Positions 2,691-61,490 of a DNA stretch of 64,000 nucleotides are shown here, in pieces. The notes beneath the pieces are model-generated. The model was not told the DNA's origin and made no database searches. It saw nothing but the letters and a program-made list of their open reading frames with translations. Positions within the stretch are counted from its first letter, which is position 1, and each line of letters opens with the position of its first letter. Origin of the DNA: Orobanche coerulescens (lineage: Eukaryota; Streptophyta; Magnoliopsida; Lamiales; Orobanchaceae); contig CM065814.1 of NCBI GenBank assembly GCA_033398695.1, forward strand, positions 107,138,501-107,202,500, given 5' to 3'. The position numbers and the translations under genes are program-made.

Positions 2691-3091
2691 TTATGACCGT
2701 AACTGATCATGCAGTACGACCATAACATACATTTGTGGAATTGGTGTCTTTCTGGATGAAGACAACTTACGGCCGTAAGTCATGCTAGTTACGGCCGTAA
2801 GCCGGAAGGTACGGCCGTATGTTTTGGAGACTACGGCTGCAGCATGCATTCATTGTTGCAGGAAGGTGTTGTCAATAAAGACAACTTACGGCCGTAAGTT
2901 CGGCAGGATACGGCCATAAGTGTTGTTGTTACGGTCGTAAGGTAGCTTTGGTTACGGCCGTAACCCAGTCAGTGCAGGCATTATTGTTTTTTCGCTGAAT
3001 CTTTGTTACGGACGTATGAAATGGATATTACTGCCGTAAGGCCATTGACTTGGGAAGTTACGGCCATAAGGTGGAAGAGTTACGGCCGTAA
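2691..3091 (+). repeat. Palindrome array, TTACGGCCGTAA type, in the 5' LTR of A
   Basis: Fourteen sites by eye related to TTACGGCCGTAA, six of them with the exact TACGGCCGTA core. They are separated by irregular, mostly unique spacers of about 8-60 bp. Variants mostly change one or two bases (TTACGGCCATAA, TTACGGTCGTAA, TTATGACCGTAA), as expected from C-to-T decay at the CpG pairs. The last copy ends 10 bp before the TATA box, so the array occupies the proximal promoter of U3. Confidence 0.93.
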
Positions 3092-3101
3092 CTCTGCGCA
3101 G

Positions 3102-3109
3102 TATTTAAA
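3102..3109 (+). promoter_or_regulatory. TATA box of the 5' LTR of A
   Basis: TATTTAAA, directly downstream of the palindrome array with a 10-bp gap and followed by a C/T-rich leader. In the 3' LTR the same position reads TATTGAAA, a weaker box. Confidence 0.7.
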
Positions 3110-3298
3110 GGCTTGAACGGGATTTTTGTGCTCATTTCACCACTTCTTCATTTTGGTCCCGAGAGAGAGTTTTTGTGGGAGAGATTTCTCATCATCAAAC
3201 ACATGTGTGTTCGAGTTTAATCATCTTTATCCGTTTGTGGAGCTTGGGAAATCGATCAACACTAGTTTTGACGGATCAAAGAGGTTGAATCTTCAAAG

Positions 3299-4378
3299 GT
3301 AATTTTCTCAAAACCTTAGATTTCGATTCTATGATGGAATATGATGTTTTGGATGTTATAGTCATGATATATGAAGAGGTATACATATGATTATGAATTT
3401 GTATGAATATTCATTGGATTATTGAAGGATTATTTGAAGAACACTTTGAATGTTGATTTGGATTTGGGGGTTTCGATTAGATGTTGTTGAAATCTCGAAT
3501 TGGGTATTCATATTGGATTATTGATTGTGTTGAAGACGTTTTGTTGGATTGTATCACTCCTTGGAGGTTTGGTATCGATATAATTGAGGATTGGTTGTAA
3601 ATATTCGAAGATTGGTTATAACGTGTTTGTTATAATGCCCCAATGAATTTGGTTTAGTCGTATCGACATTTTGAGTTGGTTGTGATCATGTTTGATTTGT
3701 ATATTAAGCAGATTGTTGGTAATTGTGTTATTCAAGGTTTTCCGAGCGACCGACATCCCATTTTAAGACGTTTGTTCGAGGAAGGACATTCTTCACTTGT
3801 GTTGTGTAAGTTAATTCTTACTCGGTTAAAAGGATGTTCATTCCTTTCGTTGTTGTTCATTCATATTCATAATTCATTCATGATATATTATTCATGTCGA
3901 GAATTGTAATTACCAAACTAATCATTCAATTCACGAGGAACGATGATACCCATCATTTCAGTGAGCTATCATTCATTTCATTATTATTTCATCTCGGTGA
4001 GTCATTCTTGACCCTTTGTCGATTTGTTATTCATTGATATTCATCATGGTCAGTTTTGTTCTGGTGACCTTTTGGGTTCATATTGTGTGGCCAGGTGGTT
4101 ATGTGTGGAATTTTTAGTCGGGCACACGATAGTCATGTGAATGGTTCACCGACACAATGGACTGTGCACACAGTAACGTGCCTCTGTGAGACTAACTAGG
4201 TACAAGGACGGGTGTGTCCGGACACTCGTCTTGTGCACTTGAACATCCCATTACGGGCGTACTATGATGCCCCTCTTCAGCTTAATTTCATGACTTATAT
4301 ATTTAATGATTGTGCTTGTTCAACTCATGAGTATTGTTGTTCTGTGTAACTGACCCCGTTGGGGGATATTGCTTTCAG
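3299..4378 (+). other. Predicted leader intron within the 5' LTR of A
   Basis: Donor context CTTCAAAG|GTAATT at 3298/3299 and acceptor context TGCTTTCAG|GTCATGG at 4378/4379 enclose a 1080-bp, T-rich segment. The same donor and acceptor positions are conserved in B, C and I. This is inferred from splice-site resemblance and conservation; no transcript evidence is available here. Confidence 0.5.
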
Positions 4379-4381
4379 GTC

Positions 4382-4552
4382 ATGGGAAGGCAAAGGCACA
4401 GGAAGAGAACGTTGACGGCGAAGAGTCCCAGTGATACTAGTAGGGGGCCCCAGTCCTTTTCAGTTGTTCATGTTTCTTCATTTTTATTTCCACTGCAAAT
4501 TTCCGTTTGGATGTTCATTTTATTCAGTGTTGTATATTTTATCTTCATATAA
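4382..4552 (+). CDS. Possible short leader ORF just after the predicted splice acceptor (A)
   Basis: ATG lies 3 bases after the predicted acceptor and opens a 56-codon frame starting MGRQRHRKRT, rich in Arg, Lys, Ser and Thr. Closely matching starts (MARQKHGKRT or MVRQKHGKRT) occur at the same place in the 3' LTR of A and in the LTRs of B and C, with differing tails. It precedes the gag start by about 830 bp, so it would act as an upstream ORF. It could equally be conserved only because LTR sequence is conserved. I do not recognise the peptide. Confidence 0.25.
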   Translation: MGRQRHRKRTLTAKSPSDTSRGPQSFSVVHVSSFLFPLQISVWMFILFSVVYFIFI

Positions 4553-4725
4553 AATATACAGGTATGTTGTATTACCTGGGTGTATTGTACTTAAAACTCC
4601 TCATCAGAGTATTGGTAATATACTGCAGTTATATTATTTAAATAATTAATTTTCATTCGCCTGGTGGGTCCTAGTCGGGGGTCCACGGCACTGTAATAGC
4701 CGCCTAGTTTGGGGTGTTACAGAGT

Positions 4726-9962: not shown

Positions 9963-12333
9963 TGTAACACCCAGTTGTAAATTCATTTGTTATCATTCTG
10001 TAATTGTCACTCAGTAAATTTTCACTCATTAATAATCATTCATCTTTCACGTTCATTCATTTGTATTCATCGTTGGCGTATTTTAAGCCGTGTATCAATT
10101 CCCAATCGTTATTCAACTCCGTTTGAGAATCGAGACGGGAGTATTATCATAATTATCGTGATTGGTAGTCTTGTATTGGAAGTATCATCTATTGCATGTT
10201 CTTGGACTTAATTACATTCATACACATATGGTATGTCGGATCATTCATCAATTGTAACGAGAAGACGGAGTTGTCGGATTTTGTTATTTCCAGCAGTGAG
10301 TTACGACCGTAACAGATCATGCATTATGGACGTAACATGCATTTGTGGAATTGGTGTCTTCCTGGACAAAGACAACTTACGGTCGTAAGTCATGCTAGTT
10401 ACGACCGTAAGCAGGAAGGTACGGCCGTATGTTTTGGAGACTACGGCCGTAGCATGCATTCATTTGTGCAGGAAGGTGTTGTCAACGAAGACAACTTACG
10501 GCCATAAGTTCGGCAGGATACGGCCGTAAGTGTTGTTGTTACGGTCGTAAGGTAGCTTTGGTTACAGCCGTAACCCGGTCAGTGCAGGCATTTATCTTTT
10601 TTCAATGAATCTTCGTTACGGCCGTATGAAATGGATATTACGGCCGTAAGGCCGTTGACTTGGGAAGTTACGGCCGTAAGGTGGAAGAGTTACGGCCGTA
10701 ACTCTGTGAAGTATTGAAAGGCTTGAACGGGATTTTTGTGCTCATTTCACCACTTCTTCATTTTGGTTCCGAGAGAGAGTTTTTGTGGGAGAGATTTCTC
10801 ATCATCAAACACTTGTGTGTTTGAGTTTAATCATCTTTATCCGTTTGTGGAGCTTGGGAAGTCGATTAACACTAGTTTTGACGGATCGAAGAGGTTGAAT
10901 CTTCAAAGGTAATTTTCTCAAAACCTTTGATTTCGATTCTATGATGGAATATGATTTTTTGGATGTTATAATCATGATATATGAAGAGGTATACATATGA
11001 TTATAAGTTTGTATGAATATTCATTGGATTATTGAAGGATTATTTGAAAAACACTTTGAATGTTGATTTGGATTTGGGGGTTTCGATTAGATGTTGTTGA
11101 AATCTCGAATTGGGTATTCATATTGGATTATTGATTGTGTTGAAGTCGTTGTTGGATTGTATCACTCCTTGGAGGTTTGATATCGATATAATTGAGGATT
11201 GGTTATAAACAATCGGAGATTGGTTATAACGTGTTTGTTATAATGCCCCAATGAATTTGGTTTTGTCGTATCGACATTTTGAGTTGGTTGTGATCATGTT
11301 TGATTCGTATATTAAGCGGATTGTTGGTAATTGTGTTATTCAAGGTTGTCTGAGCGACCGACATCCCATTTTAGGACATTTGTTCGAGGAAGGACATTCT
11401 TCACCAGTGTTGTGTAAGTTAATTCTTACTCGGTTAAAAGGATATTCATTCCTTTCGTTGTTGTTCATTCATATTCATAATTCATTCATGATATATTATT
11501 CATGTCGATACTTGTAATTATCAAACTAATCATTCAATTCACGAGGAACGACGGTTCCAATCATTTCAGTGAGCTATCATTCATTTCATTATTATTTCAT
11601 CTCGGTGAGTCATTCTTGACCCTTTGTCGATTTGTTATTCATTGATATTCATCATGGTCAGTTTTGTTCTGGTGACCTTCTGGGTTCATATTGCGTGGTT
11701 GGGTGGTTATGTGTGGAATTTTTAGTCGGGCACACGATAGTTATGTGAAGGGTTCACCGACACAATGGACTGTACACACGGTAACGTGCCTCCGTGAGAC
11801 TAACTAGGTACAAGGATGGGTGTGTCCGGACACTCATCTTATGCACTTGCACATCCCATTACGGGCGTACTATGATGCCCCTCTTCAGCTTAATTCATGA
11901 CTTATATATTTAATGATTGTGCTTGTTCAACTCTTGAGGATTGTTGTTCTATGTAACTGACCCCGTTGCGGGATATTGTTTTCAGGTCATGGCAAGGCAA
12001 AGGCACGGGAAGAGAACGTTGACGGCGAGGAGTCCCAGTGATACTAGTAGGGGGCCCCGTCTTTTTCAGTTGTTCATGTTTCTTCATTTTATTTCCACTG
12101 CAAATATCCGTTTGGTTGTTCATTTTATTCAATGTTGTATTTTATCTTCATATAAAATATACAGGTGTATTACCTGGGTGTATTGTACTTAAAACTCCTC
12201 ATCGGAGTAATTGTTAATATAATATGGTTCGGTACTGCAGTTATATTATTTAAATCATTAATTTTCATTCGTCTGGTGGGTCCCAGTTGGGGGTCCACGA
12301 CACTGTAATAGCCGCCTAGTTTGGGGTGTTACA
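9963..12333 (+). repeat. 3' LTR of element A
   Basis: 2371 bp, colinear with 2353-4721. It contains the same features: array at 10301-10701, decayed TATA (TATTGAAA near 10712), donor CTTCAAAG|GTAATT near 10908, and acceptor TTTTCAG|GTCATGG near 11986. It ends GGTGTTACA, followed by the GGTTG target duplication. Confidence 0.95.
10301..10701 (+). repeat. Palindrome array, TTACGGCCGTAA type, in the 3' LTR of A
   Basis: Fourteen sites in register with those of the 5' LTR. Individual sites differ between the two copies by transitions in both directions (for example TTACGACCGTAA here against TTACGGCCGTAA there), so both LTRs have been decaying independently. Confidence 0.93.
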
Positions 12334-12338
12334 GGTTG

Positions 12339-13738: not shown

Positions 13739-14097
13739 ACTCTGTAACACCCCAAACTAGGCGGACATTACAGTGCTGTGGACCCCCGACTGAGACCCAC
13801 CAAGCGAATGAAGATTAATGGATTACACAATACAATGTAGTACCGAACCACATTATGTCATCAATTACTCCGATGAGGAGTTTCAAGTACAACACACCCA
13901 GTAATACAGAATACATGTATATTTTATATGAAGATAAAATATACAACACTGAATGAAATAAAAATCCAAACAGAACTGCAGCGGAAAAATACATGACAAA
14001 GAAACATGAACAAATGAAGAGACTAGGGCCCCCTACTAGTATCACTGGGACTCCTCGCCATCAACGTTCTCTTCCCGTGCTTTTGCCTTACCATGAC

Positions 14098-15220
14098 CTA
14101 AAAACAATATCCCCAATGGGGTCAGTTACACAGAACAACAATCCTCACGAGTTGAACAAGCACAATCATTATATATATATTAGTTATGAAATCAAACTGA
14201 AGAGGGGCATCATAGTACGCCCGTAATGGGACGTGCAAGTGCACAAGACAAGTGTCCGGACACACCCGCACTTGTACCTAATTAGTCTCATGGAGGCACA
14301 TTACCGTGTGCACTGTCCATTGTGTCGGTGAACCCGTATCACATGACTATCATGTGCCCGACTAAAAATTCCACACATAACCACCCGGACACACAATATT
14401 AACCAGAGGTCACAAGAACAAAAGTGACCATGATGAATATTAATGAATAACAATCCGACAAGGGTCAACAATGACTCACCGGGATGAAATAATAATGAAA
14501 TGAATGATAGCTCACTGAAATGATTGGAACCATCGCTCCTCGTGAATTGAATGATTAGTTTGATAATTACAAGTCTCAACATGATTAATACACTATGAAT
14601 GAATTATGAATATGAATGAACAACAACGAAATGAATGAGTATCCTTTTAACCGAGTAAGAATTAACTTACACAATACCGGTGATGAAATATCCTCTCTCG
14701 TACAAACGTCCTTAATGGAATTATCAGTCGCTCGAACAACCTTAAATAACATAATTACCAACAAACACTTAATATACGTATCAAGCAAGTTCACAACCAA
14801 CTCATAAGTCGATACAACAATATCCAAACTCATTGGGGCATTCGAACAAATATGTTGCAAACATTCATCCTTTGATGATAACCAATCCCAAATATATTGA
14901 AACCAACCTCCAAAATGAGTAGTTCAACTCCAACAAAACATCATCAACACAATCAAATAAACCAATAGGAATATTCTATTCGAGATTACGACAACATCTA
15001 GTCGAAACTCCAAAAATCCCAAAGTCAACCCTTAGGGTGTTCTTGAATAATTCTCCAAATACTCAACAAATCCGAAAAACACACCAATAAATCCATAGGA
15101 ATACATGCATCCATGGTAGATAATCCATTTATAACATATTCCAACATAATAGCAAGCTAACTCGTAGAGATCGGAATGAAAACACTCAAATCCCAAAATT
15201 CTAGATTCAAGCAAAGTTAC
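14098..15220 (-). other. Predicted leader intron within the LTR of B
   Basis: Minus strand: donor AATCAAG|GTAACT at 15221/15220 and acceptor TTGTTTTTAG|GTCATGG at 14098/14097. Length 1123 bp, AT-rich. It occupies the same position as the predicted introns in A and C. Confidence 0.45.
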
Positions 15221-15393
15221 CTTGATTTGGTGAGTTGGAGAGGATTAAATAGTGATTAATCCGAACTAGAAGCTTGAAGATGTTGATAGTTGATTGCAGC
15301 TCGAAGAACACTTCACAAAATGTCCAAAGTCGCCCAAAATCGCCTGTGAGATAATGTGAGATGTGAAAATGCCGTAACTGGACTCAACTATCC

Positions 15394-15401
15394 AATTTAT
15401 A
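15394..15401 (-). promoter_or_regulatory. TATA box of the LTR of B
   Basis: TATAAATT on the minus strand, 12 bp from the nearest palindrome (15414-15425). Confidence 0.65.
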
Positions 15402-15412
15402 CCTGAACCAGC

Positions 15413-15968
15413 TTAGCGCGCGCTAGCTCCTGATATTAGCGTGCGCTAGCGGGTTCACCGGCCAGTCCAGTGAGTTCTGACTGCTTCGTTAGCGTGTGCT
15501 ACGAACTTGGTAGCGTGCGCTAATGTCTTCTCGTTAGCGTGTGTTACCCAAAAATTAGCGTGCGCTAACTGATGTTGATACCCAAACAACTGGAATCCAG
15601 AACCTACTTTCCAAAGTCTGATCGAGCCTTAGCGCGCGCTACATTGATGTTTAGCGTGCGCTACCAAAATAACTCTTGCGTACGCTATACCCACTCCTAG
15701 CGTGCGCTAAGAATTCCACGCCTCAGTCTAGTACCTACTGGACTGCCTTCTCCCAAAACGCTAGCGCGCGCTGATGAAGCGATATCGTGAGCTACAACTC
15801 ACAACTAGCGTACGCTATCATTGCGTGCGCTACAAATCATCCAATTCAGTCCACTTCCTACTGGACTGCTTGCCACAATACATTAGTAGCGTGCGCTAAT
15901 GAAGTCCGATAGCGTGCGCTACCAGTACACAATTAAAGCGCGCTAAAAATAGTATGTAGCGTGCGCTA
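15413..15968 (-). repeat. Palindrome array, TAGCGYGCGCTA type, in the LTR of B
   Basis: Eighteen sites by eye; most are TAGCGTGCGCTA or TAGCGCGCGCTA, often extended to TTAGCG...CGCTAA. Spacers are irregular, but a word like CTACTGGACTGC recurs near 15740 and 15860, with a diverged relative near 15460, so parts of the array arose by larger duplications. The site nearest the TATA box is one of the perfect ones. Confidence 0.93.
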
Positions 15969-17404
15969 CTCAACACACACAGGATGCCAACAACGATGAT
16001 AATGATAATATTCTCAACTCGAATCTCAAACAATGATGAAAGGCGAATGATAACTGATCCAAGGTTCCAAATACGCCAAACGGTGAACACAATGAACAAA
16101 CATGAATGATGAATGATTATTACTGAGTGAAAGATTACTGAATGGCAATTAACTGAATGATAATGAATGAATTTACAATCGGGTATTACATAACTTGCCT
16201 CGATACCGATACGACAAGCCGTTACCAATTCCATTGCTTTTGTTTACAAGCTCCCCAGCCCGGACCAAAGCAATCTATGAACTCTTCAACCTCGACCGCA
16301 ATACAACGGTTATAATCACTGATCAATCATCACAACCTATCGCAATAACCGATTAACACACATTCGATAAAAATCAACCACCGATATAACCAACCAATAA
16401 AACTCAATGGTTCAACGATACCTCTATCATATACACAAAACCAAATAATCCAACTCAACAAATACGAACTCATATCCACAATACAAGCCGCAACTCGATA
16501 ATCATAATCAACAATCAATATAACCGATCAATAAACCCAACAGTTCCACAATATCTCGATTAAACACAAATCCAAACAACCTAAATCAATCAATAACGAA
16601 TCCATAACCGCAATATGTTTCCATATACCGATAATCATATCAATGATCAATTCATCTCGATATTAAGGATTTCATAACATACTCGATTCCAACTTCAACT
16701 TTAAACATGAATCAACAAGATTCCTTCTTCTTCATACTTGTAAATTTCATAGTAAAACAATATTATCAGCATAATAGACAATCTGAACTATCCAAATAGT
16801 TCAATACCATTCATAGTCTTGTTCGAAGATTAACCATAATCTTTCCGGATTCAAACTTGTTATCATGATTCATATTTCGTCAAGAACATACGAATTCTAC
16901 CACTACAATCAGCATAACATTTGTTTCAATCATCAAATCCATGATTATACTTAAAAACTATTATGTATCCTATCACATATTCCTCTTTGATGTGATATAT
17001 ACCAAGAATACCAAGAACACCAAGAATACCATGATTCCATAATCATGATTATAACGAATAACATAATTGAAGACATATGTCATCATATTCTTCAACATAC
17101 AATTCACATAACCTCAAGAATCACAACAACAACACCATAATCATCTTCATACGAATTATTCCTCAACAACGGCATCAAAATTCCGAATTCAAGGTGTAGA
17201 GTTGTTCAACATACCTCAAGAACATGAATAACACAATCAAACTCTTCAAGAATCATCAATATCTTCATATCCAAGCCTCAAATCCATGTTTCCAAGCTCA
17301 TAACCAAGTTAGAAGAGGCTTATTCTCACTTTACATATGCAGAGGGACGAAGTTGGGAGGAAAAAATTGGTTTCTTCTCGTGAAGAAATGAAAGAACAAT
17401 CCTT

Positions 17405-17426: not shown

Positions 17427-17813
17427 TTACGTATATTATAAACCATCATTAACGTACGTAATGCTCCCTAGCGTATGCTACATGTCCAACGTAGCGTACG
17501 TAACAATCATCCAGAGCTCACTGCCTCAGTTCGTATCTTGCATAACGTACGTAACACTTGTTCCGTAGCGTACGTAATACGTACGTTGACTTGCTACAGT
17601 ATATGCTCATATTACGTACGTAACAAGCTCTGCATAACGTACGTAATACATAGTTGATTTATCTTTTGACACGTCAGCCGATACCTGGGCTCCACATGGC
17701 AGGTATTGATTCCTCTGTCTGATTCCTCTCGTTACGTACGTAATATATTATACATAACTTACGTAACACGTAGCATCTTAGCGTACGTTATCTCATAAAC
17801 TTATGTATGTTAA
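17427..17813 (-). repeat. Palindrome array, ACGTACG type, in LTR E
   Basis: Thirteen sites by eye, mainly AACGTACGTAA or TTACGTACGTAA, with hybrids such as TAGCGTACGTAA that combine a TAGCG half-site with a CGTAA half-site. Spacers are irregular. Confidence 0.92.
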
Positions 17814-19684: not shown

Positions 19685-19934
19685 TTACGGCCATAAATCT
19701 TAACGTTACGTCCGTACATCTCATCATTTATACGGCCATTACGGTCGTATTCCATTAAGTACCACACACCAGATTTATGAGGTCATGTTATGGCCATAAC
19801 ATCTTTTCTTACGGCCATATGTTTCTGGGTCACTTTGGTCGAATTCGACGAAGGGTAGTTACGATCGTAACATATTAACTGCATCTTTGTCGTAGGCTTT
19901 CTATGGTCGTAACATAGTTGTGTTACGGCCGTAA
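19685..19934 (+). repeat. Palindrome array, TTACGGCCGTAA type, internal to Athila F
   Basis: Nine sites by eye between the integrase and the env-like ORF, ending in a perfect TTACGGCCGTAA at 19923-19934. Others are decayed (TTACGGCCATAA, TTATGGCCATAA, TTACGATCGTAA). This array is not inside an LTR. Confidence 0.88.
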
Positions 19935-21065: not shown

Positions 21066-21423
21066 TGTAACACCCCAAACTAGGCGGATATTATAGTGTC
21101 GTGGACCCCCGACTGGGACCCACCAAGCGAATGAAAATTAATGAATTAAATAATATAATTGTAGTACCGAACCACATTATATCATCAATTACTCCGGCGA
21201 GGAGTTTCATTGCAACACACCCAAGATAATACCGAATACATGTATATTTTATATGAAGATAAAATACACAACACTGAATGAAACGGAGTATCCAAATGGA
21301 AAACTGCAGCAGAACAAAATAAAATGACAACATGAATGACTGAAAGGATTGGGGGCCCCTACTAGTATCACTGGGACTCCTCGCCGTCGACGTTCTCTTC
21401 CCGTGCTTTTGCCTTGCCATTAC

Positions 21424-22522: not shown

Positions 22523-22713
22523 CTTTGAAGATCCAAACACTTTGATTCGATGAACACGAGTTAGATCGACTATCCAAGCTTCACAACCGAATGAAGATGA
22601 TGAAAACCGAACACCCAAGTGATTGATGATGAAAAATCTCTCCCTCAAGCTCTCTCTCTCTAGGATACAAGGTGAAGAAATGAGAAAATGAGCTCAAAGT
22701 CCCATCCAAGTCC

Positions 22714-22721
22714 TATATAAA
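22714..22721 (-). promoter_or_regulatory. TATA box of the 3' LTR of C
   Basis: TTTATATA on the minus strand, 10 bp from the first palindrome (22732-22743). Confidence 0.7.
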
Positions 22722-22731
22722 CTGCCGAACG

Positions 22732-23193
22732 TTACAGCCGTAACTCGGCCTACTTACGGCCGTAACATCCCAAGCCAACGGCTTACGGCCGTAACCGGCC
22801 ACCTCATACAGGCATAACTCGCCCTCGTCCAACACCTGCCGACGGTCATACGGCCGTATCCGCACGTGCCTTACGGGCGTAACTCGACCGATACGGCCGT
22901 ACCCGGCCAAACTTACGGGCGTATGAAGGTTTCGCCGAAACCGCCTGGGCACCCTGCCCGAATCATACGGCCGTAACCGGCCAAGCCTTATGGCCGTACC
23001 AGCCTCATCTTACAGCCGTATGCCGCAACCTTACGGCCGTAAGTCCTGTTCGTCCGAACTGTCCTAAAAACAACGAACGCATGTTACGGCCGTATCCGAC
23101 AATCCTTACGGTCATAACTCACCTTCGTCCAAAACCACCTTGAGCCAATGAATGCATGTTACGGCCATAATGCCTGACTAGTTACGGACGTAA
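22732..23193 (-). repeat. Palindrome array, TTACGGCCGTAA type, in the 3' LTR of C
   Basis: Sixteen sites by eye. Compared with the 5' LTR array (37074-37514) there is one extra unit near 23011-23037, so the two sister LTRs differ by a whole palindrome-plus-spacer step. Confidence 0.93.
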
Positions 23194-31112: not shown

Positions 31113-31370
31113 TAGCGTGCGCTAAGCGTGCAGCGGCGTCGCTAGCGGGCGACCATCGTCGATCCGAGGCTCTGGACCGATCCCTCGCCCAGGTAGCGCG
31201 CGCTAGATGCCGGCGGCGTGCGCTACGTTTGCCGGTTAGCGCGCGGCCGCAGCGTAGCGTGCGCTACGGCCACCTCTGGAGTCAGAACCTCGGGGCCTCA
31301 CCGCCCGGCCCCGGGTAGCGTGCGGCTGGTGCCGCATAGCGTGCGCTTACGATTCCGGTTAGCGGCGCAG
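31113..31370 (-). repeat. Palindrome array, TAGCGYGCGCTA type, in the 3' LTR of J
   Basis: About eight sites, including TAGCGTGCGCTA at 31113 and TAGCGCGCGCTA near 31193, in very GC-rich spacers. Several sites are shortened by small deletions relative to the sister array at 36209-36463. Confidence 0.88.
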
Positions 31371-33726: not shown

Positions 33727-36700
33727 TGTAACACCCCCAGAATACGACCGGGAATGTCACACGCCGTAGACCCTTATCACAAGGATCTACCAGGCTAAGC
33801 TCCAAAAGACTACTCAATGATTGACCGACCGGGGTCAAAATTAAATGCAAAGCAGACCGACAAGGTCATTAACCAATTCATAAAATAACGACATTCACAT
33901 TACAATGACAATAATAAACTTGAACACCGAAAAGAATGACAACTCAATTTAATAAATGAAAACTATACCCATGCAAGGGTGAATACTCGAACGACAAAGA
34001 AATACCGACCAACTGAAACAAAGGAAAAGACTCTGACTCTGGCGTGATTAGTATCATTGTCCTCCATCTCCTTCCAAGCCAATCCGTGATCGCTCCCAGC
34101 CGCAAAACTGAGCGCATAACAGGCACCCACCCCGAAAAATCGGGGTTAGCAAACGGAATTTTGCTAGTGCAAGTACATAATATACAAGATATACGAATAA
34201 TAACAACACAAATCTCAACAGTCGTGAAGCCTTAACATAAACCACACATTCCCATAGTCCACACAGAATAGTATCACATACACAAAGTGAAAGATAATCA
34301 CATAGTCATATTCTCTGTACGGAACATAACACCAATGAAACTTTAAACGAGCCCAAGGAGTCAGAAAAATCCCTTTTTATACAAGGAAAAGTATTTTGAT
34401 AAGAAAGTTTGAAAACATCATTATTGACTCAGGCCATCATGGGGTTTTGAAAATCAAACGGGAATACTTTTAGAAAATACTTCAAAAACTCTCGAATCCT
34501 CGACCCAACATGTGGAAAACAATTTACAAGAAAACCATTACAACGTTATTCGAGGTCCTCGACCCAATGCACAGAATAATCATCACAGTACAATCAAAGG
34601 CACAGCCTCTCATTCGACAATTCGTGCTCAAGACCCTTGATTAATTAACCCTCGGAGATTTCGTCAAACATCCTTGGTTAATTAACCCCGATACCAACGT
34701 TTTGAAAACAACTTGAAACAAGCTTTGAAAAACACGAATCACATCTATATCGAGACCAGATTTGGAAAGAGTTGAAAGAACTTTAAAATACGAGGATTGT
34801 TCGATAGCGGGTCTTAGCTATCACTCGAATATCCGTTACCAATAAGCACCGGGCGCCTCCCTTACACACACATGCACCGGCGTTCACTCCACTATGTTGG
34901 CCGCCCCTTGAACATGTCACGCGCCGGCGATCACTCCTGACAGAGCCTCCCCTTGCACGCGCATTAGGTAACACCGGTGTTCACCAAACATATGGAGCCG
35001 CACATTGCAGCGTACACCAGGCCGGAGTACACACCCCGCCCTCAGAGGTTCCCGGATACGACGTCTCTCACAACAAGTATTCACATTATTACAAACATCA
35101 AGTACGCAATCAATCATTTCAACAATTATCAAATCAATACACCAATTCACACAATTTATCCGACAGTCCATAACCACACAATAAACAATAACACGTATAT
35201 TATCAATCAAGATCCAACACAATAAGCCTTCGGCACAACCAACCAACGCTACACACATATCCTTATATTGCGACTCAACCGAATATATATATATATAGAT
35301 ATATAGATATATATATATACATATAACCTTACTATATTATATGAATAACTATAGTTCATCCATCAATCCAAGTTGAGTACGCCAACTAGTGTTAGCATTC
35401 ACCACTCGTCGTTCACCGACATAGGCATATATATCAATATACGTATATACATACATATATTTAACATATAAATATATATAAATCTATATATATATATATA
35501 CACACATATATATATATACACACACATATATATATATATATATACATATATCCGTATAAATTCATACACTTCGACAACGATGATTTTACGCAGTTACAAT
35601 TCGTATATCAAGGTACTTGCCTTGGTAATCTCTCGCGGATACTCCGAAGGTACGGTCGGTTGGCAAAATCCGGAACTCCAACGAAAACAACGATCGGAAG
35701 GGCTCAACACCAGATTTTTTTGTAGGGAAATCGTCCCTAATATCCTATCATCGAATAAACAATCAATCATACGAGGAAAAACATCACAAAACGACCAAAT
35801 TCCTCTCTGCGGCATTTCCCCGGACACCTTGAAGGCATCAAACGGAAGTTCATATAATCGACGAATCGGAAATGGTAAAACCGTGGAAAGATGATGAAAA
35901 TGATAGAATACAACTTAATCTACAACTATCCATCAGTAATTTAAGTTCATAAGGCTCAAACGGACGAAATATACCAAGATCCCCAAATTTCCCAAAGTTT
36001 GGATTTTAGGAAAAACTAACCTTGATTCGGTCGATTGAAGGATGTTATGGATTGATCGATCAATGATATGGACTCAGGATCTTCGTGGTTTTGTTGTTCA
36101 ACAACATGCCTTATCGCTCTCAAAACCTCTGGCCGCGGAAGGAAAAGAATGAAATGAAAAAATGTGTTGAAACAGGGCTGCTCGGTCAAATATATAGGCA
36201 GACCGCCCTAGCGTGCGCTAGCGTGCAGCGGCGTGCGCTAGCGGGCGACCATCGTCCGATCCGAGGCTCCTGGACGGATCCTCGCCAGTAGCGCGCGCTA
36301 GATGCCGGCGGCGTGCGCTACGTCTGTCGGTTAAGCGCGCGCGGCCAGGCCGTAGCGTGCGCTACCGGCCAATTCTCGAGTCTGAACCTCGGGGCCTCCG
36401 CCGGCCCGAGTAGCGTCTTGCTGGTGCCGCATAAGCGTGCGCTTCTGCCGGTTAGCGCGCGAGCCTCCGGCGATGGCGTCGCTATGCCGGTCCTGCCGCC
36501 CGTCCGTCGAGCCCGGCTACCGTGCGGTTCCTCCGCAACCGTCCGGCGGCGCCGGCTGCCGTGCGGTTCCTCCGCAACCGTCCGTCGGCCGGCCCGGCTG
36601 CCGTGGCCTGACGACTCGATTCTTAAAAACGCACGGAACGAACACGACGAAACGCTCGCGGACAACAACATCGATCCGAAATGAAAATAATTTACAACAA

Positions 36701-37073: not shown

Positions 37074-37514
37074 TTACGGCCGTAACTCGGCCTACTTACG
37101 ACCGTAACATCCCAAGTCAACGGCTTACGGCCGTAACCGGCCACCTCATACGGGCGTAACTCGCCCTCGTCCAACACCTGCCGACAGTCATACGGCTGTA
37201 TCTGCATGCGCCTTACGGGCGTAACTCGACCGATACGGCCGTTACCGGCCAAACTTACGGGCGTATGATGGTTTCGTTGAAACTGCCTGGGCACCCTGCC
37301 CGAATCGTACGGCCGTAACCGGCCAAGCCTTACGGCCGTACCAGCCTCATCTTACGGTCGTAAGTCCTGTTCGTCTGAACTGTCTTGAAAACAACGAACG
37401 CATGTTACGGCTGTATCCGACAATCGTTACGGTCGTAACTCACCTTCGTCCAAAACCACCTTGAGCCAACGAATGCATGTTACGGCTGTAATGCCTGACT
37501 AGTTATGGCCGTAA
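37074..37514 (-). repeat. Palindrome array, TTACGGCCGTAA type, in the 5' LTR of C
   Basis: Fifteen sites by eye, one fewer than in the 3' LTR copy. Where the 3' LTR has two palindromes around 23011-23041, this copy has one (near 37352). Confidence 0.93.
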
Positions 37515-39965: not shown

Positions 39966-40020
39966 TTACGACTGTAAATGTCAATATTACGGCTGTAACT
40001 CCCTAATGTTACGGTCGTTA
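39966..40020 (+). repeat. Short palindrome cluster in the Athila LTR
   Basis: Three sites: TTACGACTGTAA, TTACGGCTGTAA and TTACGGTCGTTA. No TATA box could be assigned at a fixed distance. Confidence 0.7.
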
Positions 40021-40629: not shown

Positions 40630-42513
40630 TGTAACACCCCCAGGATATCCGAGGTATATTACAGCGCCGTGAATCCCTACATGGGACCCACCAGGCTGAA
40701 CAAGCATCATACTCATCGACTCACAGAAACAACAGAAAAATACCTCGTCATAAAGACGCCCAACAGAGTAATTCACCCGGTTTAACCGGTCAAACATGAC
40801 ACCATAATCCATCACAACATAATAAACAACAATACAACCCCGACAAGTAAAAGTTCTTAAGTACTCGAGTACTTCTATTAGTTGAAAGACCACAAAGGTA
40901 AAAGATGGAAAGCAACAAAACACCACTTGTGCACAATCATCACGCACGACCACCATCCGCATACTGGTCCAGCGCCCGCTCATCTCGATGAACCTGACCT
41001 GAAATTCATAAAACGAATTTCCCCAAGACGGGTCCCTAGAGGGGTTAGCAATTACGCTAGTACAAGTAACCAGATGAACGTCTTACATCTTACACATATA
41101 GTAATGCATGCAATTCAAGAAAACATAGTTCCAAAACACTCATTTCCGGAAATGCCAATATCAAATCACATTTGTAAAAATGCACCACAATTAACCGCGG
41201 ACCCACAGCTTCGTGGATCCCTGCCGAGACCCCGTCGGATCTAACCCACAGTGGTTAAAAGCAAGCTCGCGGTTCCACAGCTTCGTGGAGCCCTACCGAG
41301 ACCCCGTCGGATCTAACCCGCAGTGAGCATACACACACACACACGATTTCTCATACAATACTACTATGTCAAGATTGTAAGTTCATAAGGATACTTGCCT
41401 CGGTTAATAGACGATGATACGAACGGAAAGGAAGAGTTGAACACGACCGCAAGGAACCGGCGGAAATGAACCTAACGATTCGAATAACACAATCACAACC
41501 AACTCTAGACGATTACGGAAATGGAATACACCCGGAAACCCGCCTACGATTCATGTATATTCGTACCAAAAATAACAACGAGGGCGGACCACAACCAAAC
41601 CCTCCCGATTCCGTAAAATCCACAAAATATCCATGAATCCGTAGGAAAACTAAAGATACTAACAATATTAATCGTATACATCATGAATCCACCAACAAAA
41701 CGGAACGAATCGGAAGAAAAACCCAAAACCCCCAAATTAATCGAAAATAGGGTTTTAGAGTATTACCTTAGGAGATTCAAGTACCAAGATCCGTAGAACA
41801 CGCGTTAGATTGATTGCCCGGGCTTCACTACCGAAGAAAAATGGTGAAAATCAACCCCCCAATGGATAAAGATGAAGAACTCTTCCCCTCTCTCTCACTC
41901 TCTCTCGCGATGCAGGTGAAATGAAGGAGAAGACGACCGATCTCGTCTAATAAGGACGAGATTGCACAATTACCGCTTTGTGTGCCGCGGCACAGCCTAA
42001 GTGTGCCGCGGCACAGGCCAAAAATTACTCCCAGGTTTCGGCAGTGTGCCGCGGCACAGCCTGCGTGTGCCGCGGCACCCGGTACAGTTGGGTTTTGGTC
42101 GCGGAAGACACACGAGTGTGCCGCGGCACCGGACAGGTGTGCCGCGGCACTGGCTTGGCATTGTGCCGCGGCCCCGGATCGGTGTGCCGCGGCACAGTCT
42201 GCGTTTGGCCAACAATCAAGGAATTTGTGTGCCGCGGCGCACACACCTTGTGCCGCGCCCACACACCCCCTTTTGTGTCCCAAAATGATAACAATGATCC
42301 GGAAGAGAATAAAACGATAGGAATCAATATTTGGGGACTAATAACACGAAATGGATCCACGGCAACCCCGAAACGGCGGTTCCGCACAACAATAACGAGA
42401 ATACAGTTCAACAGTTTGACAGGAAGGACACGCTGAAAAGTACACGAGGGTCACTACGATCGAGAAATACACCAAAAACGAAAATACAAGGGAAAAAAAA
42501 TACGGATATTACA
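40630..42513 (-). repeat. 3' LTR of element D
   Basis: 1884 bp, TGTAACACCCCC to GATATTACA on the plus strand. Predicted intron: donor CCTAAG|GTAATA at 41767/41766, acceptor GAATTTCAG|GTCAGG at 40999/40998. A duplicated block with CCCGTCGGATCTAACCC (about 41215-41325) and a short AC run (41332-41343) lie in the intron. Confidence 0.95.
41982..42260 (-). repeat. Palindrome array, GTGCCGCGGCAC type, in the 3' LTR of D
   Basis: Ten sites by eye, seven of them exact GTGCCGCGGCAC, usually preceded by GT. A TATA-like TTATTAGA lies 27 bp away (41947-41954, minus) inside a small inverted repeat CTCGTC...GACGAG. Confidence 0.92.
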
Positions 42514-42548
42514 TTCTACCCCTCTAAAAATAAGTTTCGTCCCGAAAC

Positions 42549-47370: not shown

Positions 47371-49233
47371 CTTAACACCCCCGGGATATCCGAGGTATAT
47401 TACAGCCGCCGTGAATCCCTACATGGGACCCACCAGGCTGAACAAGCATCATACTCATCGACTCACAGAAACAACAGAAAAATACCTCGTCATAAAGACG
47501 CCCAACAGAGTAATTCACCCGGTTTAACCGGTCAAACATGACACCATAATCCATCACAACATAATAAACAACAATACAACCCCGACAAGTAAAAGTTCTT
47601 AAGTACTCGAGTACTTCTATTAGTTGAAAGACCACAAAGGTAAAAGATGGAAAGCAACAAGACACCACTTGTGCACAATCATCACGCACGACCACCATCC
47701 GCATACTGGTCCAGCGCCCGCTCATCTCGATGAACCTGACCTGGAATTCATAAAACGAATTTCCCCAAGACGGGTCCCCAGAGGGGTTAGCAATTACGCT
47801 AGTACAAGTAACCAGATGAACGTCTTACATCTTACACATATAGTAATGCATGCAATTCAAGAAAACATAGTTCCAAAAAACTCATTTCCGGAAATGCCAA
47901 TATCAAATCACATTTGTAAAAATGCACCACAATTAACCGCGGACCCACAGCTTCGTGGATCCCTGCCGAGACCCCGTCGGATCTAACCCACAGTGGTTAA
48001 AAGCAAGCTCGCGGTTCCACAGCTTCGTGGAGCCCTACCGAGACCCCGTCGGATCTAACCCGCAGTGAGCATACACACACACACGATTTCTCATACAATA
48101 CTACTATGTCAAGATTGTAAGTTCATAAGGATACTTGCCTCGGTTAATAGACGATGATACGAACGGAAAGGAAGAGTTGAACACGACCGCAAGGAACCGG
48201 CGGAAATGAACCTAACGATTCGAATAAAACAATCACAACCAACTCTAGACGATTACGGAAATGGAATACACCCGGAAACCCGCCTACGATTCATGTATAT
48301 TCGTACCAAAAATAACAACGAGGGCGGACCACAACCAAACCCTCCCGATTCCGTAAAAATCCACAAAATATCCATGAATCCGTAAGAAAACTAAAGATAT
48401 TAACAATATTAATCGTATACATCATGAATCCACCAACAAAACGGAACGAATCGGAAGAAAAACCCAAAACCCCCAAATTAATCGAAAATAGGGTTTTAGA
48501 GTATTACCTTAGGAGATTCAAGTACCAAGATCCGTAGAACACGCGTTAGATTGATTGCCCGGGCTTCACTACCGAAGAAAAATGGTGAAAATCAACCCCC
48601 CAATGGATAAAGATGAAGAACTCTTCCCCTCTCTCTCACTCTCTCTCGCGATGCAGGTGAAATGAAGGAGAAGACGACCGATCTCGTCTAATAAGGACGA
48701 GATTGCACATTTACCGCTTTGTGTGCCGCGGGTGCCAAAAATTACTCCTGTGTTTCGGCGGTGTGCCGCGGCCAAGCGTGTGCCGCGGCACCCGGTACAG
48801 TTGGGTTTTGGTCGCGGAAGACACACGAGTGTGCCGCGGCACCGGAAAGGTGTGCCGCGGCACTGGCTTGGCATTGTGCCGCGGCACCGGATAGGTGTGC
48901 CGCGGCACAAAGTACAGTTCGTTTGGCCAACAACTGAAGGAATTTGTGTGCCGCGGCGCACACACCTTGTGCCGCGTCCCACACCCCCTTTTGTGTCCCA
49001 AAATGATAACAATGATCCGGAAAGAGAATAAAATGATAGGAATCAATATTTGGGGACTAATAACACGAAATGGATCCACGGCAACCCCGAAACGGCGGTT
49101 CCGCACAACAATAACGAGAATACAGTTCAACAGTTTGACAGGAAGGACACGCTGAAAAGTACACGAGGGTCACTACGATCGAGAAATATACCAAAAACGA
49201 AAATACAAGGGAAAGAAAAATACGGATATTACA
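47371..49233 (-). repeat. 5' LTR of element D
   Basis: About 1863 bp. Its inner end reads CTTAACACCC where TGTAACACCC is expected, so the exact boundary is off by a base or two. Donor CCTAAG|GTAATA at 48508/48507, acceptor AATTCCAG|GTCAGG at 47741/47740. Confidence 0.93.
48721..48980 (-). repeat. Palindrome array, GTGCCGCGGCAC type, in the 5' LTR of D
   Basis: Nine sites by eye. Compared with 41982-42260, the TATA-proximal half is rearranged: one unit is missing and two are truncated (GTGCCGCGGGTGCC, GTGCCGCGGCCAAG). Confidence 0.92.
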
Positions 49234-49684
49234 TTGAATCTAATCGACATATAGATTGAATCAATATATAAGGGACGGTTTGATATTCAAAAGAGGAACG
49301 GTCTTTTTAAGGAAAATCGAATCTACACAATATAATAAGTAATACATCTTATGATCTCATATACATCTTCTATAAATAATGATAAATTGAGTTTGTAATC
49401 CCAACTATTTCTTTTTGCATTTTATAATTCCATTATTTTGTGCAATCATTTATTTCTATAATTTCTTGAACTATAATTGCAATTCCTTGCAATATTCAAA
49501 CTCAACTTTTAAATTGTGTGTTTCCACTCATCCTTGATAACTATAACAAAAGAAAAATAGTGTATAAATCAATTAATAACCATACTTCCAAGTGTGATCG
49601 ATTGACCGGACTCAAAAGTCCACTTACTACTTGATGCGATATCGTGCACTTGCGATAAGCTGCACCAAATGCGTGTCAAGTTTT

Positions 49685-52625: not shown

Positions 52626-53330
52626 TTAACGTACTCAAAACTTGCAGTATAACGTACGTAATTGAAACTCACCTGATGACAGATGACATGCTTTAACGTA
52701 CGTAACCGGTTTATAATAACGTACGTAACACATGAATTTTAACCGTTGAACATATTTTAGAAGGTCAACAAATCTGAACGGTCATTTACATATAAACGTA
52801 CATAATGTATACTTCCTCCGTTCTTTTATTATTGCAACGTGTTGACTATTACACTGCTCACATACTCTCTTTTGACCATTTTTGTGATTTATACATATAA
52901 AAAAAATATAGTCATGTAGGATCTTGTTAGATTCATATCGAAGTATACTTTCAAAATATCAACTTTTTATAATTTTTAAAAGTAAAGAATTGAAGATATT
53001 AATAATCAAAGTTGTGCATTGGCAAACGTGAAAGTCCAGATGTTGCATTTATAAGAGAACGGAGGTAGTATGTTATAATGTACGTAACGAGCTTTGAATT
53101 TGAATGTATGATCTAACCGTTGTTTTTCCAAGTGACGTCATCCAGTAAGTCATCATCCAACGGCTACTTTAAGGAAGCATAACGAACGTAATCCATGGAC
53201 AATTAACGTATGTAATAGTGAGCCAGAAGCTACTGCCGGATTTCGGACATAATATTACGGCTGTTACACATAAGGTGTAACGTACATTATAAGCATTACG
53301 GATATAACAGATGCTGCATAATGGACGTAA
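52626..53330 (+). repeat. Palindrome array, AACGTACGTAA type, in the LTR of H
   Basis: Twelve sites by eye, mostly TAACGTACGTAA, with a few TTACGG-type relatives near the TATA end (TTACGGCTGTTA, TTACGGATATAA). A 257-bp MITE splits the array at 52812-53068. Confidence 0.88.
52812..53068. mobile_element. Stowaway-like MITE
   Basis: Terminal inverted repeats CTTCCTCCGTTCTTTTATT and CTACCTCCGTTCTCTTATA (from the other end) extend about 27 bp with few mismatches. TA duplications flank it at 52810-52811 and 53069-53070. Size, TA target and the CTNCCTCCGT termini fit Stowaway (Tc1/mariner) MITEs. No coding capacity. Confidence 0.88.
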
Positions 53331-54973: not shown

Positions 54974-55421
54974 TAGCGTGCGCTAGCTCTTCTTCATAGC
55001 TTGTGTTAACCCTGTTATGTACGTTGTTGCTGTCTTGTAGCGTACGTTATCGATTTCCAGTTTCAGTCCAGTAGCTTTCGTTTCTTCTTTTACGTACGTT
55101 GTTGCTTCATGTTACGTACGTTATCCTCTTGACGTAGCGTACGTTAATCATACAATGTAGCGTGCGCTAATCGTATATAGTCGTTGCCTGCATTTATCAA
55201 AGTGTCTGTTGCACTTGACTTTGACCCTGACTTTTCCCAACGTTCATCTGATTTGAAATGATATTATGTACGTTAACCAGTCTGTATTACGTACGTTAAA
55301 TGGCTTCGATAGCGTGCACTATCGTGTGCATATAACGTGCGTTAAGCTTGTCATCTGCAGTCAACTTTCCTACTCGTCTGATCAGGTAGCGTACGTTATG
55401 CATGTCTCATAGCGTACGTTA
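54974..55421 (-). repeat. Mixed palindrome array in the LTR of G
   Basis: Fourteen sites by eye mixing TAGCGTGCGCTA, TTACGTACGTTA and asymmetric hybrids such as TAGCGTACGTTA. Hybrids pair a TAGCG half-site with a CGTTA half-site. Confidence 0.9.
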
Positions 55422-58978: not shown

Positions 58979-59354
58979 TGTAACACCCCAAAAGGCGGTT
59001 ATTACAGTGTCGTGGATCCCACATTGGGACCCACCAGGCGATACCAAAATGCAGATTAAATATGTATTACCTTGTGATACCAAACCACAATAATAGTCAC
59101 TACTCCGATTAGAAGTTTATTAATAGTATGGCCAACGGCCCTATTATACACAGGATCCGAATTACAAGTATAAACCATATGGAGATGGGGTATACTTTAA
59201 ATAACAATACAATCGGACAATAATGAAGCAGAATAAAGTAACATTACATGGTTTGAACATAACCGGACAACAAAAGACTTGGGGCCCCCGAACTAGTATC
59301 CTTCGAACCCTTCACCGTCACCATGCTCTTCCCGTGCCTTGCCTTTGCCTCGAC

Positions 59355-60933
59355 CTAAAATACAACACAAGTATTTTGCGCAAACCACAGGGTCAGAAAT
59401 ACATGATAAATAATTCTCCAGACATTATACAATTCACATATATTGATCTCAAAGAAAACATCCCGACTATTGAACATACCCCTCGGGCGTATGAACAATC
59501 AGTCACAAACCGTCGAACATATTCAATCATACATGAACTATGAACGATCAAATAATATGGCTCAAGATGGACATCACAGTACGCCCGATCCGGAAATGTG
59601 TTTGTGTACATGTCCACCCCGTATACGGAATCCAGAATATACGTGTGACAATGTACCTAATTAGCCTCACGAACTACGTCTCGTGTGCACAGTCCAATAC
59701 AGAAACATCCACGTATGACTATATATGTGCCTGGATAAAAATCCTACACAATAACCAATCGGCACGCATATATGATTCCAGATATGTCACGATACAACAT
59801 GACAACGAATTCAATAAATCACATATCCGATTAAGGATCAAGAACTCACCGAAGTGACAATAAGGATCAATGAGATCAACGATTCAAAGTGATGAACTTG
59901 GGAATGCAATCCCATGATGAGAAACGGAACATCATCAAGAACAATATTGAATTACGGATTATAGATTCAATAAGTGTTTCATATACACGAAACGTATAAC
60001 CATCAAAAGAATTCAATCATCATTATAACCCAGCAAGATAACTTGCCTTAATACGGAGACGAGAATAATCCTCCCTTGTCGAACGAACGGACGGTCCTGG
60101 ACTAATATCGGTCACTCGAACAATTGACCTTAAATGAAATACATTTCACTCAATAACACATCCATATAATTATCGATATCGAATTCAGTGAGACGGCACC
60201 CTAAATTCAATTGAATAGTTCAACTATCTCAAGATATCAAAATTCTATTCCAAGAACTCTTTACCTCCATTCATTCTTATGATCGGTTTACAAGGTATTT
60301 TCAAATACTCGATTGATTCTTTATGAATAAGAATTTCTCAAGAACATGTTAAACAATCATTTATGTTTGTTCATATCATCTTATATCGTTTAGCTTTCCA
60401 AGAACATCACCAATGATCAACAATATCTTCCTAAGAACATTATCAACTTATTATGATGTTCATTATATTCCTAAGGCATCAATACGACCGATTATCATGA
60501 ACATATAAGAGTTTGGTTGTCTTCAACATCATCTTTTATCATCTTACAAAGGCTTGGCTAAGCCAAAAGCAGAAATGAAGTTGAACTTTAGGTTCAAGAA
60601 CAACACTCTAAGTTCTAACATTCATCAAGGTGTTCTAATACATTTTATGTCAACAATACCATTGATTACCCTTAACTGTGATGAAACTAAGGATTATTAT
60701 TGTCTTAATGATGTTAATAATCTAGAAAGAAGAGTATGATTCTATTAAACATGATCATTACCATTAAAACATCAAGAACACCTCATTCCAAACCCTTAAT
60801 TACCATATTCATCAATAAGTGTTAAAAAGATTAACTACAAACATATTTTACTTGATTAATTCAACACTAGGTGTAGTATACTATATCACTACATCGTATC
60901 TATGAAAATATAGAGTAGAATCGTACAACATAC
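59355..60933 (-). other. Predicted leader intron within the LTR of I
   Basis: Minus strand: donor TCTGAAG|GTATGT at 60934/60933 (a textbook donor) and acceptor TGTATTTTAG|GTCGAGG at 59355/59354. 1579 bp, AT-rich, no gene. It is positionally equivalent to the introns of A, B and C. Confidence 0.5.
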
Positions 60934-61144
60934 CTTCAGAAACAAAGAACAAATCACCAAAACCATAAGAATACACTCCAAGCTACAAGAACAACTCTAA
61001 ACTTCCAATCAACAAGCTCCAATCCAAGATGCAAATCTCAAAGACAAGTTGGAAGGGTGTAAAAACGGTCTAGTGAGGCAGAGGGACGATTGTTGCAGAG
61101 AAAAATCAGAGTTTGGACGTGCAAAATGAAAGACACAAGCTGTC

Positions 61145-61152
61145 TTTTTATA
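61145..61152 (-). promoter_or_regulatory. TATA box of element I
   Basis: TATAAAAA on the minus strand, 14 bp from the first palindrome (61167-61178). Confidence 0.72.
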
Positions 61153-61166
61153 AACTGCACAGCTCG

Positions 61167-61490
61167 TTACGTACGTTATCGCATGAAGATAACGTGTGTA
61201 ATCCCCTTTACGTACGCTACACCAAAAGTGTTACGTACGTAATCTACCTTCAGATGTTACTGTCTCAAAACACTAACATCATTACGTATGTTATGGGAAA
61301 CGGAATTACGTACGTAATGTATGTCAACCTGGCTGTCTCGAAAAGGCCATCTATCCGGATCATGTCCGGCCCCCACGCCGAAAGTGAGATCAGATAAGAT
61401 TCCAAGCATTACGTACGTAACCAGCACTCCATTACGTACGTAAAGCCAACAAAATATGGTACGTTAGGTTGAATCCTTAGCGTACGTTAA
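61167..61490 (-). repeat. Palindrome array, TTACGTACGTAA type, in the LTR of I
   Basis: Ten sites by eye, four of them exact TTACGTACGTAA, others hybrid (TTACGTACGCTA, TAGCGTACGTTA). Confidence 0.92.

Follow-up and report, generated by a model that had tools for sequence, protein, structure and literature searches.

A 64-kb stretch of the genome of the broomrape Orobanche coerulescens (contig CM065814.1, forward-strand positions 107,138,501 to 107,202,500; hereafter the window, from whose first letter coordinates are counted) carries arrays of short palindromes in retrotransposon sequences, most of them within long terminal repeats (LTRs) and nearly all ahead of a TATA-like box. In its strict form, TWRCGNNCGYWA or T[TA][AG]CG-NN-CG[TC][TA]A, the palindrome is a 12-bp dyad in which two 5-bp half-sites flank a 2-bp centre. 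This form matches the window 75 times, compared with a mean of 0.44 and a maximum of 3 in dinucleotide shuffles (n = 50), and 74 of the matches fall within the following arrays.

2691..3091, forward strand: array of the TTACGGCCGTAA type in LTR A5 (2353-4722), chromovirus-like; TATTTAA at 3102, 10 bp past the last palindrome
3080..3108, forward strand: example of the register in LTR A5, with its final palindrome and TATA-like box
10301..10701, forward strand: array of the TTACGGCCGTAA type in LTR A3 (9963-12334), the second LTR of element A; TATTGAA at 10712
15413..15968, reverse strand: array of the TAGCGNNCGCTA type, 17 sites by the relaxed score, in LTR C (13741-16194); TATAAA at 15401, 12 bp past the last palindrome
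17427..17813, reverse strand: array G, TTACGTACGTAA/TAGCGTACG type, with 23-bp doublets; TATAAA at 17412, 14 bp downstream
19685..19934, forward strand: array of the TTACGGCCGTAA type, about 750 bp past an integrase-core fragment; TATAAA at 19946, 11 bp downstream
22732..23193, reverse strand: array of the TTACGGCCGTAA type in LTR B3 (21064-23543); TATATA at 22719, 12 bp downstream
31113..31370, reverse strand: array of the TAGCGNNCGCTA type in LTR D3 (28632-31743); TATATA at 31099, 13 bp downstream
36209..36463, reverse strand: array of the TAGCGNNCGCTA type in LTR D5 (33727-36833); TATATA at 36196, 12 bp downstream
37074..37514, reverse strand: array of the TTACGGCCGTAA type in LTR B5 (27199-28631 and 36834-37850, split by element D); TATATA at 37061, 12 bp downstream
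39966..40020, forward strand: cluster of three TTACG-type sites, spaced 21 and 22 bp; no TATA-like box by the patterns used
41982..42260, reverse strand: array of GTGCCGCGGCAC palindromes, mostly at 21-bp pitch, in LTR F3 (40632-42515); weak TTATTAG 28 bp downstream
48721..48980, reverse strand: array of GTGCCGCGGCAC palindromes in LTR F5 (47373-49235); weak TTATTAG 28 bp downstream
52626..53330, forward strand: array J, TAACGTACGTAA type, interrupted by AT-rich DNA, upstream of a putative copia-type gag open reading frame (ORF); TATAAA at 53372, 41 bp downstream
54974..55421, reverse strand: array H, mixed TAGCG, TAACG and TTACG halves at 23-bp pitch, about 1.1 kb from a copia-type gag ORF; TATAAG at 54931, 42 bp downstream
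61167..61490, reverse strand: array E, TTACGTACGTAA type, in the 3′ LTR (about 58979-61680) of a Ty3 element; TATAAA at 61152, 14 bp downstream

The original prediction, made from the letters of the window, placed about 170 palindromes in 15 stretches. Every one of these stretches does contain them, and a relaxed score counts 168 sites inside (151 of the TWRCG type and 17 of the GTGCC type), a number in agreement with the first estimate; the same score gives 130 scattered matches outside the stretches. The 15 stretches represent 11 separate elements or LTRs, because self-comparison of the window identifies A, B, D and F as LTR pairs, each of which accounts for two stretches. The single plan proposed for all palindromes holds in part. 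One class comprises the TTACG, TAACG and TAGCG halves, which are found together in individual palindromes, whereas the GTGCC palindrome GTGCCGCGGCAC has another half-site, other CpG positions and a pitch of mostly 21 bp. The observed/expected ratio of CpG is 1.44 in the arrays and 0.99 elsewhere.

The arrays occur beside several kinds of retrotransposon genes. The original prediction named the hosts Tekay, Athila (for the 19685 array) and SIRE, lineage labels that are putative. Elements A and B contain an SH3_Tf2-1 domain above the Pfam cut-off and chromodomain matches below it, a domain content that fits a chromovirus. Element E is of Ty3 type, with RT_RNaseH and Integrase_H2C2 both above cut-off. 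The array at 19685 is preceded by an integrase core (rve), and an H2C2 match below cut-off, by itself, suggests that this element is also of Ty3 type. The copia gag near the array at 54974-55421 was recognized by Pfam, while the ORF near 52626 resembles a copia-type gag by eye and has no Pfam match. Element D (28632-36833), which is nested in LTR B5, has 3.1-kb LTRs that enclose just 2 kb of interior; the interior ORF scanned (32126-32716) has only zinc-finger matches below cut-off, and the element is probably non-autonomous.

The palindromes are abundant in the 3.646-Gb genome that contains the window. The matK gene on contig C258 of this genome shares 92% identity with that of Orobanche hederae and 89% with that of O. 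austrohispanica, with lower values for the O. gracilis (83%) and O. minor (77%) entries, in line with a member of Orobanche or a near relative. With the reversed pattern as control, TAGCGNNCGCTA is found 1,320,899 times (control 3,402), TTACGNNCGTAA 412,278 times (control 2,319) and the GTGCC-type GTGCCNNGGCAC 108,144 times (control 1,023), which makes TAGCGNNCGCTA the most frequent of the three types counted genome-wide. A sample of 25 stretches of 10 kb at fixed positions holds 200 sites, compared with 2 for the control pattern, and 15 of the stretches have at least three. Extrapolation of 200 sites per 250 kb gives roughly 2-3 million 12-bp dyads in the genome. The same half-sites emerge from a motif-free scan of all palindromes of the 5-N2-5 form in the first 20 of the 25 stretches: among half-sites seen at least five times, the ratio of observed to expected is highest for TAGCG (86 seen, 460-fold) and TTACG (17, 114-fold), followed by GTGCC (5, 82-fold), TAACG (6, 67-fold) and then AT repeats. 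In two of the sampled stretches, L025 and L026, the arrays adjoin ORFs similar to those of Ty3 elements.

The arrangement of the half-sites follows a defined grammar. Perfect half-sites face each other across a 2-bp gap in 400 counts (both strands) and across any other gap from 0 to 11 bp in at most 30. Half-sites in the same direction are separated by 23 bp in 167 cases and by 24 bp in 57, with at most 26 at each other distance from 5 to 39 bp. The spacers had been described as irregular, a description that the window contradicts. With one copy per element, 63 of 112 successive distances measure 20-24 bp, where chance placement predicts 15.9 and the most found in 2000 placements was 30; in the genome sample, where gaps of at most 300 bp were counted, 77 of 167 measure precisely 23 or 24 bp. 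The palindromes thus form evenly spaced runs, parted by longer linkers.

The linkers between runs hold inverted repeats of other kinds. GTTGTC-N6-GACAAC is found in both A5 (2868-2885) and A3 (10478-10495), and two copies of CAGTCYA-N8-TGGACTG are found in LTR C (15724-15745 and 15847-15868). These may be candidate sites of a second factor.

The regular pitch does not appear to be the product of a repeated unit. In TWRCG arrays the 11-base spacers are on average no more alike within an array (similarity 0.343, 61 pairs) than between arrays (0.346, 2,084 pairs), so that the pitch is maintained without sequence copying, and the unit including its spacer is not repeated head to tail as in a satellite. 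Tandem repeats reported by TRF over the window arrays are short, the longest being in F. A larger block with several palindromes, a 130-bp unit, is duplicated in L025. The alternative that a single satellite had been copied around these loci thus finds no support in the spacers.

The arrays stand in register with the promoter. When TATTTAA, TATTGAA, TATAAG and TTATTAG are also counted as TATA-like in the window, a sense-strand box follows 14 of the 15 stretches; for boxes of this wider kind, the prediction that all of them lie upstream of a TATA box is confirmed save in the 39966 cluster, which has none. LTR A3 (TATTGAA) and the GTGCC LTRs (TTATTAG) have degenerate forms of the box. Seven of the 11 elements (the 19685 element along with A, B, C, D, E and G) leave 10-14 bp between the end of the final palindrome and the box; the gap is 41-42 bp in J and H and 28 bp, to a weak box, in F. 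In the genome sample, TATAWA lies 9-14 bp from an array end in nine of 29 arrays, compared with 0.65 expected, and further TATAWA boxes are found at 20-22 and 41-43 bp. Genome-wide there are 160,887 matches of TAGCGNNCGCTA with TATAWA within 30 bp. Among the first 100 of these, some of which overlap, the gap is 9-14 bp in 68 and exactly 11 or 12 bp in 49. The combination of TAGCGCACGCTA with TATAWA at 9-14 bp is found at 52,670 places, more than three times the background of about 15,300 that would apply even if every TAGCG palindrome had the TAGCGCACGCTA centre.

Asymmetric palindrome centres are mostly oriented with respect to the promoter. The promoter side is known for 15 of the 29 sampled arrays, several of which are related to each other, and on the sense strand of these arrays the asymmetric centres read CA 44 times and TG twice in the class with a 9-14 bp gap, and CA 27 times and TG once in the 41-43 bp class. 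This polarity may be functional, or it may be what strand-biased mutation has left of an earlier CG centre. Gaps to TATA in the sampled arrays seem to cluster near 11-14, 21 and 42 bp, a series that recalls helical steps; the 20-22 bp class, found in L028 and L031, is without CA polarity.

Half-sites are conserved between elements while spacers are not. Palindromes and spacers were compared in 11 diverged and 8 young pairs of arrays, which we chose from 43 matching pairs. The comparison is limited to arrays with at least four strict sites, which leaves 19685, 39966, D, F and J outside; some arrays enter two pairs, each pair is counted in both directions, and not all young pairs are the two LTRs of a single insertion. 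In the diverged pairs, differences affect 295 of 2,369 palindrome positions (0.125) and 1,853 of 5,231 spacer positions (0.354). The palindrome value is the lower one in all 11 pairs (ratios 0.17-0.69), and the two centre bases diverge by 0.24 and 0.25. In the young pairs the values are 93 of 1,697 (0.055) for palindromes and 320 of 4,231 (0.076) for spacers, and palindromes are lower in seven of eight. Between elements A and B, changes affect 27 of 168 palindrome positions and 99 of 219 spacer positions (p = 1e-9). The LTR pairs within the single insertions A and B, with sites chosen by motif, display no preservation of palindromes, with 14 of 156 versus 20 of 245 positions changed (p = 0.85) and 16 of 180 versus 14 of 261 (p = 0.18), respectively. 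The simplest reading of these comparisons is that selection acts on the half-sites while the elements are active and that the sites drift afterwards.

LTR C provides a case of exchange. Its identity to LTR A3 is 0.84 over the first 100 bp and 0.66 over the next 100, falls to 0.37-0.48 at 200-1100, and is 0.74-0.94 beyond, whereas A and B are 0.58-0.90 identical throughout. The blastn match of C resumes at about 964-978. The part of low identity contains the array and TATA, with TAGCG palindromes in place of TTACG palindromes. LTR C is therefore A/B-like save for its promoter part, and at least one promoter block has been replaced as a unit. Of the earlier proposal that elements of different origin converged on these sites or exchanged them, exchange is thus supported in this one case. 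The blastn matches listed include none that links the 19685 array to the other LTRs or the 54974 array to the Ty3 arrays, which would be consistent with convergence or with exchange too old to see.

A precedent for palindromes upstream of TATA exists in the RM boxes of Sirevirus LTRs, which were reported as Sirevirus-specific, with a CGG-CCG core present in 12 of the 13 RMs of Table 3, and which the authors likewise could not assign to any one known binding factor (Bousios et al. 2010, PMC2829016). The original statement, that no named element was known to match the arrays, has to be corrected, since RM boxes are close in plan. Both consist of a palindromic motif in many copies per LTR, clustered upstream of TATA in the upper half of the LTR in CpG-rich DNA. 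However, the CGG-CCG core fits only TTACGGCCGTAA and is missing from TAGCGNNCGCTA, TTACGTACGTAA and GTGCCGCGGCAC, and RM boxes, described as absent from copia elements other than Sireviruses, differ in host from the present arrays, which occur in Ty3 LTRs (the chromovirus-like A and B, and E). The arrays thus appear to resemble RM boxes in operation and to fail two of their defining features. The 23-bp pitch, the 10-14 bp register to TATA and the CA polarity have no match in the portions of that account consulted (PMC2829016). New relative to RM boxes are the Ty3 hosts, the half-site code, the pitch, the polarity and the scale.

Other known systems share single features with the arrays. The maize Sirevirus palindromes (2016 work, as presented in the relevant parts of PMC5311732 and PMC10760457) likewise form a palindrome-rich and highly variable regulatory region of the LTR, and are explained there by secondary structure and small RNAs, whereas the TTACG and TAGCG dyads fold poorly and have nearly independent halves. 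The heat-response element of ONSEN/COPIA78 is a host-factor site within an LTR that is driven by that factor, HSFA2 having bound the LTR in vitro (PMC3907296, in part); unlike ONSEN, the present LTRs carry many CpG-containing dyads at a fixed pitch. The targets of VANC in VANDAL elements are repeated short non-coding motifs that vary between related elements, according to the sections used of PMC5735166 and PMC10398659. VANC is an anti-silencing protein encoded by the Arabidopsis VANDAL elements themselves, whereas the motif described here is common to retrotransposons and tied to TATA.

At oriP, EBNA1 of Epstein-Barr virus binds paired dimer sites that lie 21 bp apart, about two helical turns, and we know of no plant relative of this viral protein. 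The Qp site bound by EBNA1 includes TAGCGTGCGCTA, a common type here (PMC2921154, in part). We treat the likeness as coincidence and use it as an analogy for geometry only. A literature search with the motif strings TTACGTACGTAA, TTACGGCCGTAA and TAGCGTGCGCTA returned no plant-LTR paper by title, and the part of the results considered for Tekay palindromes and Orobanche included no report of such arrays. The main text of PMC4381496 contains neither "palindrom" nor "promoter". In the portion of the literature on LTR palindromes that was surveyed, there is no earlier description of the pitch, the TATA register, the polarity, the half-site code or the spread among Ty3 elements.

The sequence evidence makes it rather probable, in our view, that a dimeric activator, probably encoded by the host, binds the arrays cooperatively next to the TATA machinery. 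Dimeric transcription-factor sites are marked by inverted half-sites separated by a single fixed gap, by conservation of those half-sites and by free spacers, all of which are found here. The original suggestion of dimeric-factor sites ahead of retrotransposon promoters gains from the 2-bp gap, the conservation of the half-sites and the register to TATA. The left and right halves of the palindromes are nearly independent (0.829 and 0.795, compared with 0.810 and 0.773 when halves are re-paired within arrays), which is what two monomers making separate contacts would produce. The arrays would act as upstream activating sequences in the U3 part of the LTRs. Each 12-bp dyad would take one dimer through its two TWRCG half-sites, adjacent dimers, one per 23-24 bp or about two helical turns, would bind cooperatively, and the most proximal dimer would be placed within reach of the TATA-binding machinery. 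Since the same half-sites are used by Ty3 LTRs and by an LTR next to a copia gag, without other blastn similarity, the protein most likely comes from the host and is active where the elements multiply. Elements could gain transcription by keeping many good sites, their promoter blocks could be exchangeable, and the CpG-rich sites would decay after insertion, probably through methylation. Consistent with the last step, 25 of the 32 changes within the A and B palindromes are C-T or G-A.

Several observations weigh against this interpretation. Transitions are also common in the spacers (30 of 43 changes), which leaves methylation-driven decay of CpG as a suggestion. The choice of sites that are intact in one sequence lowers their apparent divergence, a bias that can be gauged from the young pairs, where the overall ratio is 0.72 and six of eight pairs lie below 0.8; some arrays also recur among the 11 diverged pairs. 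The TAGCGNNCGCTA matches near TATAWA, 160,887 in all, are about as many as the background estimate of 158,000 (sample rate 0.00193 per position), so that the argument from these matches depends on the distribution of distances, that is on position, alone. The polarity is not strict: the 20-22 bp class has CA three times and TG four times, and in 79 of the first 100 listed genome matches, with overlapping longer matches and two-palindrome rows excluded, CA outnumbers TG by 37 to 10 at 9-14 bp, while at other gaps CA is absent and TG occurs 12 times. A perfectly symmetric dimer, moreover, would need no polar CA centre. A pitch of 23-24 bp is no exact multiple of 10.5, and the GTGCC arrays do not fit the TWRCG half-site. 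Among the NAC, bZIP, SBP, CAMTA, LBD and FAR1 families, none to our knowledge seemed to explain TTACGGCCGTAA, TAGCGCACGCTA and TTACGTACGTAA together. Finally, 39 and 22 of 500 re-pairings gave as much symmetry between halves as the slight excess observed, and the RNA of the nine window arrays folded, out of 15, folds better than dinucleotide shuffles (z -1.2 to -8.1).

The last of these points raises the possibility that secondary structure is what has been selected, with the U3 arrays at the 3′ end of the element RNA forming hairpins that benefit the element or supply small-RNA silencing. The palindrome regions of Sireviruses are described as small-RNA hotspots with strong predicted structure (PMC5311732 and PMC10760457, in the parts consulted), and a GTGCC dyad lengthened to 16 bases has a folding energy of -4.6 kcal/mol. 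However, single TTACG palindromes fold as DNA at 0 and TAGCGCACGCTA at -0.7 kcal/mol, the halves of a palindrome are nearly independent, the centre is less self-complementary than after re-pairing, and structure alone accounts for neither the fixed pitch nor the register to TATA; we regard this explanation as unlikely. By analogy with VANC, the arrays could instead be docking sites of an anti-silencing or demethylating system, in which a protein of the element or of the host strips methylation. The dense CpG motifs in non-coding promoter DNA and the switch of motif between the related LTRs C and A/B would suit such a system, as would the targets of VANC, which are tandem repeats that vary between related elements (PMC5735166 and PMC10398659, in part). 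It is nevertheless quite unlikely, in that VANC is encoded by its element while half-sites are shared here by different kinds of element, and in that the TATA register and the polarity of the centre point to the transcription machinery.

The symmetric CpG sites present in every palindrome type could also serve to recruit a host silencing factor, as the original prediction allowed, the arrays then being a means of host targeting without benefit to the element. This now appears less likely, because the sites are retained while the elements multiply: loss would be expected of such targets, whereas half-sites are kept between diverged, multiplying elements and are not preserved in the two LTR pairs after insertion. 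We hold a silencing factor to be highly improbable. The arrays could, lastly, be functionless products of minisatellite-like tandem duplication, for which the duplicated block in L025, the offset self-matches of A and B, and the F spacers, alike by eye, would be examples. The dissimilar spacers within TWRCG arrays, the conservation of half-sites but not of spacers, and the register to TATA all speak against such an origin, to which we give hardly any credence.

If the dimeric activator is real, its reach could be wide. It is possible, and we propose it tentatively, that one host dimer or small protein family is the common promoter switch of many LTR lineages in this broomrape, acting through oriented 12-bp dyads at 23-bp pitch in a fixed register to TATA, and that elements converged on this switch or traded promoter blocks to acquire it. 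The promoters of unrelated elements would then converge on, or exchange, one host input. This is of interest given that the switches of plant LTR retrotransposons are understood in few cases. The shared and countable grammar of half-site, pitch, register and polarity could be used as bait to purify the factor, and as a predictor, from sequence, of transcribable LTRs in the large, retroelement-rich genome of a parasitic plant.

Palindromes of this kind are also present in pairs in seven viral contigs, five of which have one pair, while L001 has a pair and a lone site and L002 has four sites. A protein query of viral contigs returned no relative. The four TWRCG dyads of L002 (5761-5886) start 22, 46 and 46 bp apart, near the pitch of the plant arrays. 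The broomrape genome further contains 42 MatK_N matches, many of them on chromosome-size contigs, which suggests frequent insertion of plastid DNA. An ORF in the sampled stretch L018 (4611-5186) encodes a carlavirus-type nucleic-acid-binding domain (PF05515 and PF01623, both above cut-off) and is a possible fragment of an endogenous RNA virus.

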